DNA from: Oscillospiraceae bacterium
GTDB taxonomy: Bacteria > Bacillota > Clostridia > Oscillospirales > CAG-272
DNA: 45,761 nucleotides
Reading direction: 5' to 3'
Assembly (NCBI GenBank): GCA_015065175.1
Contig: SVQV01000005.1
Span: 1 to 45,761, forward strand
Under the pieces are notes generated by a model, which ran no database searches, was not told where the DNA came from, and saw only the letters and a program-made list of their open reading frames with translations. Positions 39,115-45,761 of this stretch are shown piece by piece; within the stretch, counting starts at the first letter, position 1, and every line of letters begins with the position of its first letter. The translations under genes and the position numbers were made by a program.

Positions 39115-42100
39115 TCATCCCCAGATACTTATATCATAATCAACACCGAATATTTCGGAAAGTGCATCAATAGCTTTCTTCTGATAAGACTTTGTCGCCT
39201 GCTCATAGTTCTTTTCGAACGCGATCTCAAGAGAACCTATATCAAACTCGGAAAGCTTTCTGTCACTCAAGTCTATAGAAATTACCTGAACCGCATTACA
39301 AACCGCTCTCGAAGAAATGATAGTCTTTACGAACGCATAAGCAGTGGTATTCAAGGTGCTGTCACCGTCACCGGCAAACAAGTTCTTAGCATTCTTATTA
39401 ATGAATACGAGGGAGAAGAGCGATCTTACAGCCGCTCTGTCTTCAGGCTTGACCTCTTCGGAAAGAGAGTTGAACAATACTCCCAAGCCCTCTGCAAGAC
39501 CACCTGCATATTCTTCCTTTATACCGTACTCCATAAGCAGATCTGCATCACAGACATAGGACAACGCTTTAGCCGAGGTTGTGGAGATATTACCCATCAT
39601 AGCCTCGATAGCCGCAAACTTTTCTTCTGCCGACGCATCACTTGTGAGGATCATAATATTAACGAGCATCTCACCTGTTGCGCCGAAGAAGTTCTCATAT
39701 CCGGGCTCTTCTGTCTCAGGAACTTCGGGTTCTTCGGGTGCTACGGTTACAGGGGCTTCCGTTACAGGCACTGTAGTTACAGGAGCCTCTGTTACAAGCG
39801 CTGTTGTAACTGCTGTTACGGGAGCGGTTGTAACTGCCGCTGTTGTAACGGGTGCAGCTGTTGTAACTGCCGCAGTTGTCGCAGGAGCTTCGGTTACGGG
39901 AGCATCTGTTACAGGAGCTACCGTTACAGGAGCTTCAGTTGTGGGAGCTACTGTTACCTCAGGCTCTGTATCTGTATTACCCTCGCTGGGTTTGTTCTCG
40001 TTTTCCTGCTTTTCCTGTTCCTTCTTAGCTTCTTCTCTTGCCTTAATTACATCGTTTGAAATAGCCTCAGCCATATCAATGAGCTTATCCTTGGAAACGG
40101 GAATGCGGTCTGCTACTATGTCACAGGAAAGGATAGACTTTGTAAGAAGGCTCGCCTTTTCGCTGCCGCTCTCGGAAATTTCGGTGATACCGTCAAGAAT
40201 AACACCGGTCTGTTTCATAATAACATTCATGTTTTCCATGACATTATCATTTTTTACAAGCACTGTGGAAAGTGTCGAAACCGCCTTAGCAATTTTTTCT
40301 ACAGCCTTGGCAGCTGCCTGGTTTGCAGCCTTCTGCTGTTCCTTCTCAGCCTTTTCTTTTTCCTTCTCTGCTTCTTTCTCGGCCTTTTCCTGTTCCTTAT
40401 CCTTCTTCTTATCTGCCTTCTGCTGTTCCTTTTCTTCCTTCTTGTCGTCCTTCTCCTGCTCCTTATCTTCCTTGTCCTTATCCTTGTTGCCATTATTGAC
40501 TATAGGAGCAAAATCGTCTTCTTCTGTGAAGAGAATGTCGGATACAACGGGAATTTCGGTCGGGAAATTCTCAGGCTTCGAAGCAAGCTTAGGCTGAAGC
40601 TCTACACCGTTTTCAACGTCTTTTTCCATTTTTGCGCTAAGAGACTGAGATATCTTTTCGCTATCCTCAGCAGAGCCTGCCATATCAAGAGTAAGCTCCA
40701 TAACCTTAACCTTTGCTTCCTCGGCATTGCCCTTGCCCTCAAAGATAGCATCAGCCTGCTCACGGAGAAGCTTCATCAAAGCAGCAGCATAAGCCGCGCC
40801 TGACATCTTGCCCTCATTCTTCTTAACTGTAAGAGAGCCGTCGGCGTTTTTGGTTGCGTCAAGTGTTACGAACTCGCCAATGTTCTCGGCATTCTTAAAA
40901 GTCACAAGGAATGAATCACTGCGAGTGTAAGCCTTGCTTTCACCGTATGAAATAACGGTTATACTATCAAACTTTACACGCTTTGTTACTATTTCGGATT
41001 CTTCATTTTCAATATATGCGGTGTATTCCGTAAAGAAGTCTGCGACCTCCTCATCGGTGATATCGCTTCTTCCGTTAAACTCATAAGAAATACCTACAGC
41101 AAGACAGTATTTCTCTGTATCGGAAATTTTAAGAGCATAATTTGCGCATATCTTATCCATTTTACCTGTAAGCACATCTGTCATTTCGCTTACAGAAAGA
41201 TCTGCCATTGCGTTAAGCTCGCCTGCTACCTCTGACGTAAAATTAGAATGAAGTGCTTCCTTGGATTCGGGAATGTTCATGACCTTTGCCGCCGCGCGCA
41301 GACCTATATTGATTATCTCGGGTACGAGAACGGTCATTCTCGGGTTATCGTAAAGAGGAACTGCCATGGAGGATACAACACCGTCCTGCTGCATGAGTGT
41401 CATAAGCTCTTCGGTATTGCCTATCTTTGTAAGCATTCCGCTGTCAACGACCGCATCCGCCAAGGAAACGAGTGTATGCAAATCCTCCTCGATATTATCC
41501 TTCGAAGATGTTGCGAATATCTTGAGCAAAGCATCAAATGCGCCTGTAATCATCTCATTCATAACAGGCTTCTTCATTCCGAGGAATTCATTGCCTTCAA
41601 TCCAAGCTTTACTTGCAGAGGAAAGAACCTCGGGCAATATTCCCATAAGAATTTCGGATTCTGTAGCAGCCGCCTCTATATTATAGAGAGCATCTACCTG
41701 CGCATCCCCTATATTATCGACCTTAACGCCCTTGAATGCGGTAGCGGAAAGCGCCGCATCAAGCATGTGCGAAAGCTCGTTCTTGAGAACTATCTTCTCG
41801 CCGTTCAGCTTTGCCGAAGAAAGAGTTCCGTAAAGCCATTTTCCGCCAAGAGCCTGTGTTCCGGCAAAGAGAGGAGAGGAGTCTACGCCATCGGCATATC
41901 CCTTTGCGGTAATAACGGCATCTGCACCGCTTATCCCGTCCAGATCCTTCTCGGTTATCTCAAGAGAAGCAACCGTATCCACCAAGCCGACTACGGGTGT
42001 GTAAACGCCAACAATAAGTACGAGGGCTACGACTGCGCCGATAAGCGCGCCAAACACCTTATGCTGAACGCCTGACTGCTTTTCGTCAAGCGGCTTCACT

Positions 42101-42471
42101 GCCTTCTTTAAAAAGTGGTAGGCTATCAAAAGCAAAAGCGAAAGCACTATAAAGCATACAGCGAAAACAAACGGTGCCGCCACAGAGTATGCAAGAGTGC
42201 CGGGCAAAGCCTCAAGAGTGGGCATGGACGCAAGCGTCTCTTCGGTTATTCCCGCCTTTGCAAGCAATGAAATAATAAGCGCTCCCACGGGTTTAGCCAC
42301 TGTCTTTGAAACAGCGAATGCTATCGGAATGGAAAGAAAGAAAGCAACAAGAATCGTGCCAAGCTTTACAGCAGCCTTCACTGTCTTTCTGAACATTCCA
42401 AACAAAACCGCAAGAACAAATATTATTATTGCGGGAACGGAAATCAACAGATTAATAAGTGTGATATTCAT
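39115..42471 (-). CDS. Large CvpA-like membrane protein with Lys/Glu coil and Thr/Pro/Ala repeats
   Basis: 1118 residues. Residues about 1-175 hold four or five transmembrane segments in a CvpA-like layout (LLISVPAIIIFVLAVLFGMF, AVKLGTILVAFFLSIPIAFA, YSVAAPFVFAVCFIVLSLLLL, GALIGAVVALVLIVGVYTPVVG). A long helical extracytoplasmic region follows. About 660-724 is a Lys/Glu/Gln-rich coil (KDKEDKEQEKDDKKEEKEQQ), and about 832-915 is an imperfect pentapeptide tract (APVTV, APVTD, APVTE, TTAAP), probably an extended wall-spanning linker before a C-terminal domain (918-1118). It is alone behind a good promoter. The role is unknown; an envelope or division-septum function is a guess. Confidence 0.65.
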   Translation of the reverse strand: MNITLINLLISVPAIIIFVLAVLFGMFRKTVKAAVKLGTILVAFFLSIPIAFAVSKTVAKPVGALIISLLAKAGITEETLASMPTLEALPGTLAYSVAAPFVFAVCFIVLSLLLLIAYHFLKKAVKPLDEKQSGVQHKVFGALIGAVVALVLIVGVYTPVVGLVDTVASLEITEKDLDGISGADAVITAKGYADGVDSSPLFAGTQALGGKWLYGTLSSAKLNGEKIVLKNELSHMLDAALSATAFKGVKVDNIGDAQVDALYNIEAAATESEILMGILPEVLSSASKAWIEGNEFLGMKKPVMNEMITGAFDALLKIFATSSKDNIEEDLHTLVSLADAVVDSGMLTKIGNTEELMTLMQQDGVVSSMAVPLYDNPRMTVLVPEIINIGLRAAAKVMNIPESKEALHSNFTSEVAGELNAMADLSVSEMTDVLTGKMDKICANYALKISDTEKYCLAVGISYEFNGRSDITDEEVADFFTEYTAYIENEESEIVTKRVKFDSITVISYGESKAYTRSDSFLVTFKNAENIGEFVTLDATKNADGSLTVKKNEGKMSGAAYAAALMKLLREQADAIFEGKGNAEEAKVKVMELTLDMAGSAEDSEKISQSLSAKMEKDVENGVELQPKLASKPENFPTEIPVVSDILFTEEDDFAPIVNNGNKDKDKEDKEQEKDDKKEEKEQQKADKKKDKEQEKAEKEAEKEKEKAEKEQQKAANQAAAKAVEKIAKAVSTLSTVLVKNDNVMENMNVIMKQTGVILDGITEISESGSEKASLLTKSILSCDIVADRIPVSKDKLIDMAEAISNDVIKAREEAKKEQEKQENENKPSEGNTDTEPEVTVAPTTEAPVTVAPVTDAPVTEAPATTAAVTTAAPVTTAAVTTAPVTAVTTALVTEAPVTTVPVTEAPVTVAPEEPEVPETEEPGYENFFGATGEMLVNIMILTSDASAEEKFAAIEAMMGNISTTSAKALSYVCDADLLMEYGIKEEYAGGLAEGLGVLFNSLSEEVKPEDRAAVRSLFSLVFINKNAKNLFAGDGDSTLNTTAYAFVKTIISSRAVCNAVQVISIDLSDRKLSEFDIGSLEIAFEKNYEQATKSYQKKAIDALSEIFGVDYDISIWG
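39725..39980. repeat. Degenerate tandem repeat in the large membrane-protein gene
   Basis: GTTACAGGAGC-type units of about 15 bp encode the APVT[VED] pentapeptides (GTTACAGGGGCTTCC, GTTACAGGAGCCTCT, GTAACGGGTGCAGCT). They stay in frame, so length variation by slippage is possible without breaking the gene. Confidence 0.75.
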
Positions 42472-43102: not shown

Positions 43103-43122
43103 TTTCCGCCCGCCCTTCTGAA

Positions 43123-43385
43123 GGGCTGTCTCAAATGGAAATTTGAGACAGTCCTTTTTTTAATGTGCAAGGGGATAGTCAGATTTGAGGAAGAAGCGTC
43201 GTTTTCCGCCCCGAAGACGTATTAAATACGTCGAGAGGAAGGAAACGGCGGTAGAAAAAGTCCATAAATTCAGAAGAATTTCGCAGAAATTCAACCTTTT
43301 CTGTCTCATTTACACTTTTTGTTGTAAATATGGTCTTTTTTAATACTTTTCCGGACTTTTTCGGTCTTACCAAATGTGACAGCCC
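43123..43385. mobile_element. MITE copy A, GGGCTGTC termini
   Basis: 263-bp non-coding element. The left end GGGCTGTCTCAAATGG and right end (read inward) GGGCTGTCACATTTGG are near-matching terminal inverted repeats. The left end also folds into a hairpin with T run (CTGTCTCAAA/TTTGAGACAG, TTTTTTT). Its inner 180 bp recur at 45581-45761 in reverse orientation with two differences. No target-site duplication is evident. The 64-codon ORF inside (43179-43373) has no ribosome site. Confidence 0.8.
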
Positions 43386-43429
43386 CAGTGATATACTTAC
43401 TGTAATAAAATATGTATATCCTTTTTGCT

Positions 43430-43774
43430 TTATACCAGATTGAGCTTTTTGGCTATTCTGTATTTGCAGTTTCTCTTACGGGTCTTATATGTTCCCGCCG
43501 CCATATAGTATAGCTGAGTGCGGCGGTGTCCTACTCCGTTTCCTATGTCTTCTCTAAGCTTCTTTCGTATTCCCTCCTCGCACTCCTCCTCAAGCGCCGA
43601 GTCTATCACCTCATTAAGAAAGCGGTAATGCTCTATCGTTTTCTCGTCGGCAGTCTGCTTCTCTATTTCCCTCTGCCGTCTTTCGTAATCTCCGCAAAGC
43701 GCCACCACCACGCGGTTTATCTGTAACGGAAGCATCTTCGCTCTTGCCTCTTTGTTGGTTTCTACTGTTCTCAT
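43430..43774 (-). CDS. Phage ArpU/RinA-like regulator
   Basis: 114 residues from ATG 43774, which follows GGGAGG; the track ORF begins 26 codons too early. It is charged and helical (NRVVVALCGDYERRQREIEKQTADEKTIEHYRFLNEVIDSAL), ending YYMAAGTYKTRKRNCKYRIAKKLNLV, the helix-turn-helix-like end seen in phage late-transcription regulators of the ArpU/RinA type and in sigma region 4-like proteins. The family assignment is from pattern only. It is the last of three leftward genes in the phage-type cassette, 43 nt after the coiled-coil gene. Confidence 0.5.
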   Translation of the reverse strand: MRTVETNKEARAKMLPLQINRVVVALCGDYERRQREIEKQTADEKTIEHYRFLNEVIDSALEEECEEGIRKKLREDIGNGVGHRRTQLYYMAAGTYKTRKRNCKYRIAKKLNLV

Positions 43775-43817
43775 TTGTATTTCCTCCCTTTCTTTTTCTT
43801 CCTTTGGTTTTTCTCTT

Positions 43818-44138
43818 TTATCTGCTTTTCGCAAGCCACAGGGTTTCGTCAAGCTCGTCCTTTAAGCATTCGAGGTTTTCGACAAGCCTCTCGCATTCGC
43901 TGTAGGTCATCTCCGCGTTTTCGGCTATGTCCTCAAGCTCAGAGAGAAGCTCCTTTTCCTCACCCTTCCCTTCTTCTATAGCCGACTTGACACTCTCCTT
44001 CGCTTCTTCAAGCTCCTCTATTTTCTTGTTGGCGCGCTTTAAAGAGCTTCTCACCTCATCTATCTCGGATTTTATATCCGATACATCTCTTACGTAATAA
44101 GGCTCCTCATAATAGCCGCTGTTTATCATATGTAGCAT
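43818..44138 (-). CDS. Small coiled-coil protein of the phage-type cassette
   Basis: 106 residues, acidic. After MLHMINSGYYEEPYYVRDV it is one long heptad-patterned coil (IKSEIDEVRSSLKRANKKIEELEEAKESVKSAIEEG ... LLSELEDIAENAEMTYSECERLVENLECLKDELDETLW). Its start follows GGGAGG by 7 nt and lies inside the end of the preceding small ORF, so translation is coupled. No family was recognised; small coiled-coil proteins of this size are common in early phage regions. It is transcribed from the operator-covered promoter at 44.38 kb. Confidence 0.6.
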   Translation of the reverse strand: MLHMINSGYYEEPYYVRDVSDIKSEIDEVRSSLKRANKKIEELEEAKESVKSAIEEGKGEEKELLSELEDIAENAEMTYSECERLVENLECLKDELDETLWLAKSR

Positions 44139-44343
44139 TTTTCAACCTCCCGTCAAATAAAACACGCGCATATTTTTTATTTTTGCGCATACACTCTATT
44201 GTGTCACCTGTTGTGTGACTCGGCAGCAGTAAGCCTCCGCAAATTTTATTTATCAAGCAGACACTGTTTTCTTCGGGCAAACAGCGCCCTTCCCTTGACG
44301 GCATGTAGCCTTTTTTCCGTCTTTTTGGGGTAGCGGATTTCAT
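44107..44343 (-). CDS. Small basic ORF, first gene under the operator-controlled promoter
   Basis: 78 residues from ATG 44343; the track's GTG start at 44352 leaves almost no leader. AGGTGA lies 5 nt before the ATG, and the predicted start point of transcription is about 16 nt upstream, so a short-leader mRNA could be read. The protein is basic at the N-terminus (KSATPKRRKKGY) and has no recognisable domain. It overlaps the coiled-coil gene by 32 nt. Operator C lies within it. It could instead be an untranslated leader. Confidence 0.4.
   Translation of the reverse strand: MKSATPKRRKKGYMPSREGRCLPEENSVCLINKICGGLLLPSHTTGDTIECMRKNKKYARVLFDGRLKNATYDKQRLL
44203..44219. promoter_or_regulatory. Repressor operator C
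   Basis: GTCACCTGTTGTGTGAC, half sites GTCAC-N7-GTGAC. It differs from operator B at one position and lies about 140 nt inside the transcribed region. Confidence 0.7.
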
Positions 44344-44347
44344 TCCT

Positions 44348-44364
44348 GTCACCTGTTATGTGAC
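44348..44364. promoter_or_regulatory. Repressor operator B
   Basis: GTCACCTGTTATGTGAC, half sites GTCAC-N7-GTGAC, beginning directly after the -10 box and covering the predicted start point of the leftward promoter. Confidence 0.78.
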
Positions 44365-44365
44365 A

Positions 44366-44394
44366 ATTATAGCATAGGTTTTGTCACCTGTCAA
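44366..44394 (-). promoter_or_regulatory. Leftward promoter of the phage-type cassette
   Basis: TTGACA, 17 bp, TATAAT on the minus strand, a perfect match. Operator A contains the -35 box and operator B begins at the -10 box. Confidence 0.88.
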
Positions 44395-44399
44395 GTGAT
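44383..44399. promoter_or_regulatory. Repressor operator A
   Basis: GTCACCTGTCAAGTGAT, shares GTCACCTGT and GTGA with operators B and C and contains the complement of the -35 hexamer. Confidence 0.75.
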
Positions 44400-44424
44400 T
44401 TTTCAAAATATTTTTCAAAAAAAT

Positions 44425-44441
44425 GTTGCATATTATGCAAC
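44425..44441. promoter_or_regulatory. Palindrome over the -35 box of the repressor promoter
   Basis: GTTGCATA-T-TATGCAAC, a perfect 8-bp inverted repeat covering TTGCAT. It is unlike operators A-C, so it may bind a second regulator. Confidence 0.5.
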
Positions 44442-44454
44442 TTTATGTTATAAT
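44426..44454 (+). promoter_or_regulatory. Rightward promoter of the repressor gene
   Basis: TTGCAT, 17 bp, TATAAT, 31 bp from the divergent leftward promoter. It gives a leader of about 295 nt before the repressor start. Confidence 0.78.
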
Positions 44455-44497
44455 ATGTTGTAGAATGTAGAATAAGATAAAAGTGTGTCGGTTGTGA

Positions 44498-44719
44498 AAT
44501 GCTCTTTTGTTTGGAAAGAGTGATGTATCGGCTACGCCGAAGTGATGTTATGGCTTTGCCATAGTGATGTATTGCTCCTTCGTCGCAAAGCGATGTGATG
44601 CTTGCCTACTTCGCCGCAAGGCGAAACATCACTCACGCAGTGAACATCACTGCCGAAGGCTACATCTCTTGCCCGAAAGGGCAAACATCGTTCGGCTGAC
44701 CTGCTTTATCGCAGGTCAC
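44498..44719. repeat. Hairpin array in the repressor leader
   Basis: About 220 nt of short stem-loops joined by GTGATGT / ACATCAC: CTCTTT-AAAGAG, TCGGC-tac-GCCGA, TATGGC-ttt-GCCATA, TTCGCC-gcaa-GGCGAA, CAC-gca-GTG, GCC-gaa-GGC, TTGCCC-gaaa-GGGCAA, ACCTGC-tttatc-GCAGGT. No ORF. The same design with a TCATAACT joint occurs in repeat blocks 3 and 4. Confidence 0.8.
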
Positions 44720-44757
44720 CGTTAAACGGAAAAGCTTATTTTAAGAAAAGGGGCGAA

Positions 44758-45402
44758 GTGATTTTGAGCATTGGTGCGAAAATAAAAAGAGAGAGACTCG
44801 CAAAGGGCTATACCCTGGACGAGCTTGCAAAAAAGGTAGGGACGAGTAAGCAGACTATATTCCGCTATGAAGCGGATGCCATCTCAAATATTCCGCCCGA
44901 CAAAATAGAGGCGCTCGCATTCGCCTTGGGAACTACCCCTGCCTATCTTATGGGCTGGGAGAGCGAGGACTCCGAGGAAGCGCTGCTGAAAAGGAGGGGA
45001 ATTATGCCAATTCGCAAAAAAAAGATCCCTCTCTGCGGAGAGATCTCCTGCGGTCAGCCTATCTATGCGGAGGAAAACCGTGAGACCTACGTTTCCACCG
45101 ACTGTGATTTTGACGCAGATTTCTGTCTTACCGCACACGGAGACAGTATGATAGGCGCGCGTATCTATGACGGCGACCTCGTGTTCATAAAGAAGCAGCC
45201 TACAGTCGAAAACGGAGAAATAGCCGTAGTCATCATCGAGGACGAGGCGACGCTCAAGCGGGTATACTATTACCCCGAGGAAAGCAAGCTTATCCTCTGT
45301 CCCGAAAACCCTCACTACGCGCCCATGTCCTTCTCGGGTGCCGAGCTTGACCGCATAAACATCTTAGGCAAAGCCGTCGCCTTCCAAAGCAAGATAAGAT
45401 AA
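44758..45402 (+). CDS. CI/LexA-like repressor, XRE domain plus S24 peptidase
   Basis: 214 residues. The N-terminal helix-turn-helix (AKIKRERLAKGYTLDELAKKVGTSKQTIFRYE, about 7-38) binds DNA; the C-terminal S24 domain (about 88-210) carries nucleophile Ser130 (HGDSM) and Lys167 (LKRV), with a probable self-cleavage bond Cys98-Gly99 in GEISCGQP. This is the architecture of temperate-phage repressors inactivated through RecA. GTG start at 44758 just after AAGGGGCGAA; TTG at 44764 is the alternative. It faces the operator-covered leftward promoter and is its likely regulator. No integrase or structural gene lies nearby. Confidence 0.9.
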   Translation: MILSIGAKIKRERLAKGYTLDELAKKVGTSKQTIFRYEADAISNIPPDKIEALAFALGTTPAYLMGWESEDSEEALLKRRGIMPIRKKKIPLCGEISCGQPIYAEENRETYVSTDCDFDADFCLTAHGDSMIGARIYDGDLVFIKKQPTVENGEIAVVIIEDEATLKRVYYYPEESKLILCPENPHYAPMSFSGAELDRINILGKAVAFQSKIR

Positions 45403-45436
45403 ACGAGCCCTCTCTCGAGAAAGCTCGTTTATTCTC
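45399..45436 (+). terminator. Terminator of the repressor gene
   Basis: Perfect 10-bp stem ATAAACGAGC / GCTCGTTTAT that includes the stop codon; the T run after it is short. Confidence 0.7.
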
Positions 45437-45509
45437 GCAGTAATATGGCTTGCAAGTCTTAAAGACAGTTTTCGAAATTCTATTGAATACGTTACTTACT
45501 GACAGGAAA

Positions 45510-45550
45510 AGGACAGAGAATGTTTAAGCTCTCTGTCCTCTTTTCTTGAT
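45510..45550 (+). terminator. Second hairpin terminator behind the repressor
   Basis: Perfect 10-bp stem AGGACAGAGA / TCTCTGTCCT followed by CTTTTCTT. No gene lies between it and the first terminator, so it either backs that up or ends an unseen short transcript. Confidence 0.6.
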
Positions 45551-45580
45551 AAGCACTGTATTAAATAAAGACAACAAACG

Positions 45581-45761
45581 GGGCTGTCACATTTGGTAAG
45601 ACCGAAAAAGTCCGAAAAAGTATTAAAAAAGACCATATTTACAGCAAAAAGTGTAAATGAGACAGAAAAGGTTGAATTTCTGCGAAATTCTTCTGAATTT
45701 ATGGACTTTTTCTACCGCCGTTTCCTTCCTCTCGACGTATTTAATACGTCTTCGGGGCGGA
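45581..45761. mobile_element. MITE copy B, truncated by the window end, inverted relative to copy A
   Basis: Begins GGGCTGTCACATTTGGTAAG and over 181 bp is the reverse complement of 43205-43385 with two base differences. Copies A and B thus frame the phage-type cassette as inverted repeats. Confidence 0.88.

Follow-up and report, generated by a model that had tools for sequence, protein, structure and literature searches.

A probable phage-type repressor switch kept in the chromosome by a genus of Clostridia

We analyzed contig SVQV01000005.1 (C119 in our numbering) of an Oscillospiraceae bacterium (assembly GCA_015065175.1; 2.34 Mb, 187 contigs, 92% complete). "The window" refers here to this entire contig of 45,761 nucleotides, which stops inside a repeat at position 45761; all of the material used is from metagenome assemblies. 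Near its right end, between inverted copies of a miniature inverted-repeat transposable element (MITE), lie a gene for a CI/LexA-like repressor and, reading away from it, two small genes that we call p106 and p140 (Table 1). We consider it probable that the region holds a phage-type repressor switch of the chromosome, which the genus has kept without a phage, rather than a mobile unit, and that the MITEs are not involved in it. In the best reading, a co-opted phage repressor runs a local DNA-damage switch with new target genes, its inducibility by damage being predicted from the residues of its cleavage site.

The repressor, its operators and its targets

The repressor suggested by a preliminary description of this DNA was borne out by Pfam matches to the S24 peptidase domain (PF00717, 1.7e-26) and to HTH_3 (PF01381, 3.5e-12); translation possibly starts at a TTG at 44764. 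Its best PHROG match was the phage repressor family phrog_4 (2e-43), and it shares 46.8% identity with a protein of a faecal phage contig. The cleavage dipeptide C98-G99 and the catalytic residues S130 and K167 were invariant in 25 homologues. The likeness to LexA lies in the S24 domain. Against the LexA profile TIGR00498 the protein scored 87.8 bits (E 7e-25), under the cut-off of 110.95, and instead of the LexA winged-helix domain PF01726, for which it gave no match, it carries HTH_3. A role as LexA replacement or SOS master regulator was rejected because its operators are local and not SOS-wide. As a side observation, PF01726 was not found in G000 and did not exceed 34 bits across the genus, whereas the order's other families, where they matched, mostly scored 44 to 82 bits; one subgroup has a second LexA-like S24 gene near the repressor (L035:4423-5028).

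Three exact copies of a 17-bp site, GTCACNTGTNNNGTGAY, start at 44203, 44348 and 44383, whereas 100 shuffles of the window yielded none. In its own genome the strict pattern, here GTCAC-N7-GTGAC, occurs only at these three places, which the preliminary description had overlooked. It had proposed divergent promoters, and both are recognizable: the leftward one is a perfect 12/12 match to sigma-70 (TTGACA-17-TATAAT), and the rightward one, in front of the repressor, reads TTGCAT-17-TATAAT. The palindrome GTTGCATATTATGCAAC covers the -35 element of the latter and thereby suggests that the repressor autoregulates. The operator consensus is present in 48 of 60 genomes of the genus, and since sites with no or one mismatch are found nearly exclusively at the switch locus, the regulon looks local.

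Of the three leftward small genes in the preliminary description, p106 and p140 are conserved; the third, an 81-amino-acid open frame, has a homologue in no relative. The p140 product was modeled with high confidence as six helices (pLDDT 93). In a fold search its best viral matches included, with a weak E-value, a phage protein annotated as a transcriptional activator (BFVD A0A8S5TWS6; TMq 0.67, probability 1.00, E 0.11), and nothing significant was found among PDB structures. From this modeled fold, p140 may be a transcriptional activator. A sequence search of PDB returned helical coat proteins of tobamoviruses (best E 1.2e-5), a likeness that we took as a helical-bundle coincidence. The p106 model is a long helical hairpin, for which the fold search found generic helical hairpins only.

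Genomes in which the repressor and p140 have become separated were the most informative. In one group, seven near-identical repressors in our tree have no p140 alongside, and p140 stands alone at another locus. At all six unlinked p140 loci that we read, one operator covers the -35 element and a second follows the -10 element, exactly 35 bp apart. This is the geometry of the O3/O2 pair in the window, and the corresponding spacing in linked genomes is 35 to 37 bp. More generally, the best operator upstream of p140 had 0 to 3 mismatches in 30/30 loci (mean after shuffling, ∼5.7). Because p140 keeps the operator pair at the same spacing even in trans, it is very probably the conserved target of the repressor. 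Six genomes carry p140 without p106. Nothing short of an experiment speaks more strongly for control of p140 by the repressor, and for p140, and not p106, as the indispensable output of the switch.

We propose the following mechanism. The S24 repressor would bind the paired 17-bp operators O2 and O3, which lie over the -35 element and on both sides of the -10 element of the p106-p140 promoter, and would probably also bind the palindrome over its own -35 element. After DNA damage, RecA would prompt the repressor to cut itself at C98-G99 by means of S130 and K167, and this cleavage would free p106 and p140. With its helical fold like that of a phage late transcriptional activator, p140 may then turn on further genes.

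Distribution in the genus and absence from phages

Of the 45 genus genomes that were 80% complete or better, 36 contained p140. A draw of 294 other genomes from the order yielded just four matches: two in members of the genus, one in another genus of the same family, and one weak and partial. Judging from these searches, p140 does not extend beyond its own genus and a second one in the family, and it is a new conserved protein family. A DNA search with the whole region gave matches in 44 of 59 relatives, many of them due to dispersed repeats within it, and the segments with the repressor and the operators were matched in most members of the genus. At the protein level, the repressor shared 45 to 63% identity with its counterpart in nearly all genus loci fetched (exception, L058 with 34%), and p140 stood beside the repressor in most of these loci. 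In 38 of the 80 named loci taken from species genomes, p140 adjoined the repressor; the records are metagenome-assembled genomes of uncultured Clostridia or Oscillospiraceae, chiefly from ruminant and deer guts.

In contrast, neither p140 nor p106 was present in 80 repressor loci of viral contigs, and p140 was absent from 50,697 phage records. Relatives with 7 to 10 kb of sequence on both sides of the unit showed no phage genes beside it, with spoIIA, groESL and metabolic genes there instead, and no integrase, portal, terminase, capsid or lysis gene linked to the unit was found in relatives. The preliminary description had likewise noted no integrase, terminase, capsid or lysis gene in the cassette, and in the window no phage structural gene or integrase was seen near it; the suggestion of that description of a domesticated lysogeny switch agrees with the conservation of repressor, operators and p106-p140 in chromosomes. 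As an observation on the genus itself, the phage portal family PF04860 was found in 0/41 of its genomes, from which the genus (G000 to G351) is apparently prophage-poor.

In a tree of 92 repressors, those accompanied by p140 fell on one side (39/50 rows) and all nine from viral contigs on the opposite side (SH-aLRT 90); one divergent p140-bearing row (L142) lies with the viral ones. By distribution and tree, the system is one that belongs to the host lineage, presumably of phage ancestry.

Several observations weigh against this picture. In a mirror-tree comparison, the distances of the repressor and p140 correlated modestly with those of the linked sigF and groEL (Spearman 0.29 to 0.38); the case for vertical inheritance therefore rests on the distribution and the tree, and there is room for exchange between lineages. 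The operator consensus found no match in some genomes of the genus, and a subclade has the variant GTTGC...GTAAC. The p140 product has no Pfam, NCBIfam or PHROG family, and the profile of the ArpU/RinA late activators (TIGR01637) gave no match at the p140 gene, nor did hmmscan. Finally, an inverted MITE pair within 2.2 kb would arise in 2 to 12% of random placements of 6 to 16 copies.

Likeness to known repressor switches

The closest parallel that we found is FddR of Francisella, described in 2026 (PMC13148647). It is a phage S24 repressor, co-opted genus-wide and bearing autocleavage residues, that acts on its own gene and on a divergent one of unknown function, with a small local regulon, in bacteria whose LexA is highly diverged. 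The window repressor likewise combines a helix-turn-helix domain with an S24 domain bearing the cleavage site and the catalytic serine and lysine. Its palindromic operators lie in a shared divergent promoter region with few sites elsewhere, and it is kept genus-wide in chromosomes outside prophages; the weak LexA domain is a further point of likeness. The bacteria are unrelated, however, and the FddR operator is GTG-N11-CAC (PMC13148647), compared to GTCAC-N7-GTGAC in the Clostridia, where the targets are other, novel genes. In addition, the target in Clostridia is sometimes unlinked yet keeps its operators, and spoIIA-groESL adjoins the unit in most relatives. While FddR was examined by RNA-seq and electrophoretic mobility shift assays (PMC13148647), the Clostridia switch is predicted from sequence and is likened to FddR by its presumed working, not by sequence comparison. 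It would be a similar but independent system whose operators and targets differ, and a Clostridia parallel to the capture of a phage repressor as a local DNA-damage switch in Francisella. It may also have gone a step further toward a larger network, in that its target gene left the repressor and kept its operators.

Phage repressors of the lambda CI type (phrog_4) share with the window repressor the helix-turn-helix and S24 domains and the paired operators over divergent promoters. In contrast to them, the unit in the window has no cro, integrase or structural genes, resides in the chromosomes of the genus, and has targets that were not found in phages. The regulatory logic also resembles that of RogA-gafYZ in Caulobacter, where a chromosomal XRE-family repressor controls a small pair of genes for transcriptional activators that turn on a gene transfer agent, the stimulus removing RogA being described as unknown (PMC9632790). 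For the window repressor, unlike RogA, the self-cleavage residues suggest DNA damage as the stimulus. A gene transfer agent as the output is not supported, and regulation of such an agent was rejected because the portal family was absent from the 41 genus genomes.

Alternative explanations and the flanking repeats

The linkage to sporulation genes deserves attention. In 30 of the 38 p140-bearing named loci, spoIIAA lies directly downstream of p140 in the same direction, about 93 to 264 nucleotides from its stop codon, followed by spoIIAB, sigF, groES and groEL where the contig reaches. This arrangement would be expected if the switch served commitment to sporulation, with p106-p140 expression feeding spoIIA-sigF-groESL by read-through or with p140 acting on the spoIIA promoter. 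However, the gap between p140 and spoIIAA holds a conserved element, TGNGACA-N21-TAWAAT (L085 to L154, L288, L290), which is likewise found ahead of spoIIAA in genomes G000 and G010, whose p140 sits elsewhere, and the switch persists unlinked from spoIIA in several lineages. We take the element to resemble a Spo0A-box promoter; the spoIIG and spoIIE promoters have a spacing of 21 to 22 bp. The spoIIA operon therefore probably has its own promoter, and a role in sporulation commitment appears unlikely. We make no claim that sporulation is under the control of the switch, although the linkage in 30 loci is notable. It would be a doubtful extrapolation to see here a phage-derived DNA-damage repressor and a phage-activator-like protein placed at the sporulation commitment locus, with p140 tying damage to the expression of sigma-F and the chaperonin. 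We found no literature on spoIIA with a phage-type repressor. Independently of the switch, groES-groEL directly follows sigF across the genus, an unusual spoIIA-groESL cluster (L041:6368-10019; L288 of G000) that is also present where p140 is unlinked.

A toxin-antitoxin or abortive-infection pair fired by DNA damage is another conceivable reading of p106-p140, as both genes are small and lineage-specific, overlap or adjoin each other, and lie under a cleavable phage-type repressor. We give this little credence: the pair matched no toxin in Pfam, NCBIfam or PHROG, and in the six genomes with p140 only, the partner is dispensable.

The chromosomal switch must further be weighed against the repeats that frame it in the window. 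The two nearly identical inverted repeats of about 180 bp reported in the preliminary description are real: the inverted arms (43205-43407 and 45559-45761; 203 nucleotides, 94% complementarity) are copies of a single MITE, 99% identical. Their length was underestimated, as the element has 265 bp and the right, inverted copy is truncated at 182 nucleotides by the contig end. The 5' end of the complete left copy consists of a hairpin followed by T's. The same genome has one further full copy on C84 and partial copies at the ends of C100, C104 and C111, as is typical of contig breakage at repeats. The preliminary description had suggested that the cassette could be moved, or inverted by recombination, through these repeats, and two such similar copies only 2.2 kb apart, mildly unlikely as a random pair, lend this some appeal. 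Nevertheless, the switch unit occurs genus-wide without framing MITEs: fragments (75 to 82% identity) were found in the switch loci of just 4 relatives, on one side at most, and in no sampled relative do MITEs frame the unit. Such conservation of the region in the absence of the repeats is what the preliminary description had named as refuting its idea. Instead, 36 of 60 genus genomes carry dispersed members of the family, among them diverged copies of full length at unrelated places. With 99.0% identity, the copy on C111 resembles the left copy about as much as the right copy in the window does (98.9%), the cassette contains no transposase, and no target duplication is visible with C104, the only candidate for the outer flank. 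A composite mobile or invertible unit is thus very improbable. No empty site was found among relatives, nor could one be, because the DUF4358 gene on the left flank has merely distant homologues elsewhere. Coincidence is an adequate, though not certain, account of the pair: in this species the unit came to lie between two MITE insertions, a local accident, and the MITEs have no role in it. Like MITEs described from gut Clostridia, the element is short, non-coding and present in many copies with imperfect inverted ends, but no parent transposase was identified here and the element is unrelated to the switch.

That the window shows the edge of an ordinary prophage or of a satellite element, with structural genes past 45761, is highly improbable: the kinship of the repressor to phage CI and the end of the contig at that position would permit it, yet the relatives with both flanks, the phage records and the portal survey described above all speak against it, and C104, the only contig found to end in the matching MITE half and hence the sole candidate for the continuation, carries AraC, UxaC, short-chain dehydrogenase (SDR) and glycosyl hydrolase 39 (GH39) genes, with no phage gene among the proteins scanned.

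Table 1. Features of the switch region and its repeats (window coordinates)
Feature	Position	Strand	Basis
Complete left copy of the MITE (265 bp), bounded by GGGGCTGTCTCAAATGG and CCAAATGTGACAGCCCC; A as first base in this copy	43122-43386	+	
p140, 114-amino-acid all-helical protein, shorter than the 140-amino-acid open frame	43430-43774	-	Conservation; GGAGG before ATG
p106, 106-amino-acid helical hairpin (coiled coil), R-x4-I motif at its N terminus; lies upstream of its partner p140	43818-44138	-	Conservation; GGGAGG before ATG
81-amino-acid open frame, probably no gene	44107-44352	-	Unconserved
Putative operator O1, GTCACCTGTTGTGTGAC, within p106 leader	44203-44219	.	Exact pattern match
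Putative operator O2, GTCACCTGTTATGTGAC, directly downstream of leftward -10	44348-44364	.	Exact pattern match
Leftward promoter for p106-p140	44366-44394	-	Sequence
Putative operator O3, GTCACCTGTCAAGTGAT, over leftward -35	44383-44399	.	Exact pattern match; 35 bp from O2
Palindrome over -35 of rightward (repressor) promoter; possible O4	44425-44441	.	Sequence
Gut-1-like dispersed hairpin repeat, inserted between operators and repressor	44509-44722	.	Rfam match
CI/LexA-like repressor, HTH_3 and S24	44758-45402	+	Pfam profiles, homologue alignment
Dispersed intergenic repeat adjoining right MITE	45457-45562	.	DNA search of relatives
MITE, right copy, inverted, truncated by contig end	45580-45761	-	Sequence match to left copy

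Two further repeats in the region had escaped the preliminary description. The Gut-1-like hairpin has many copies in the genus and occurs also in L010, L011, L014, L019 and L053; its Rfam match to the Gut-1 "sRNA" reaches at most 48.7 bits (gathering threshold, 50), and Gut-1 is possibly a mobile repeat and not a small RNA gene. The repeat next to the right MITE (∼105 bp) is present in many genus genomes and in one other family. Elsewhere in the window, the leftward gene at 39115-42471 encodes a CvpA-like protein of 1,118 amino acids with a long Lys/Glu-rich segment of EKEQQKA repeats and a Thr/Pro-rich stretch.

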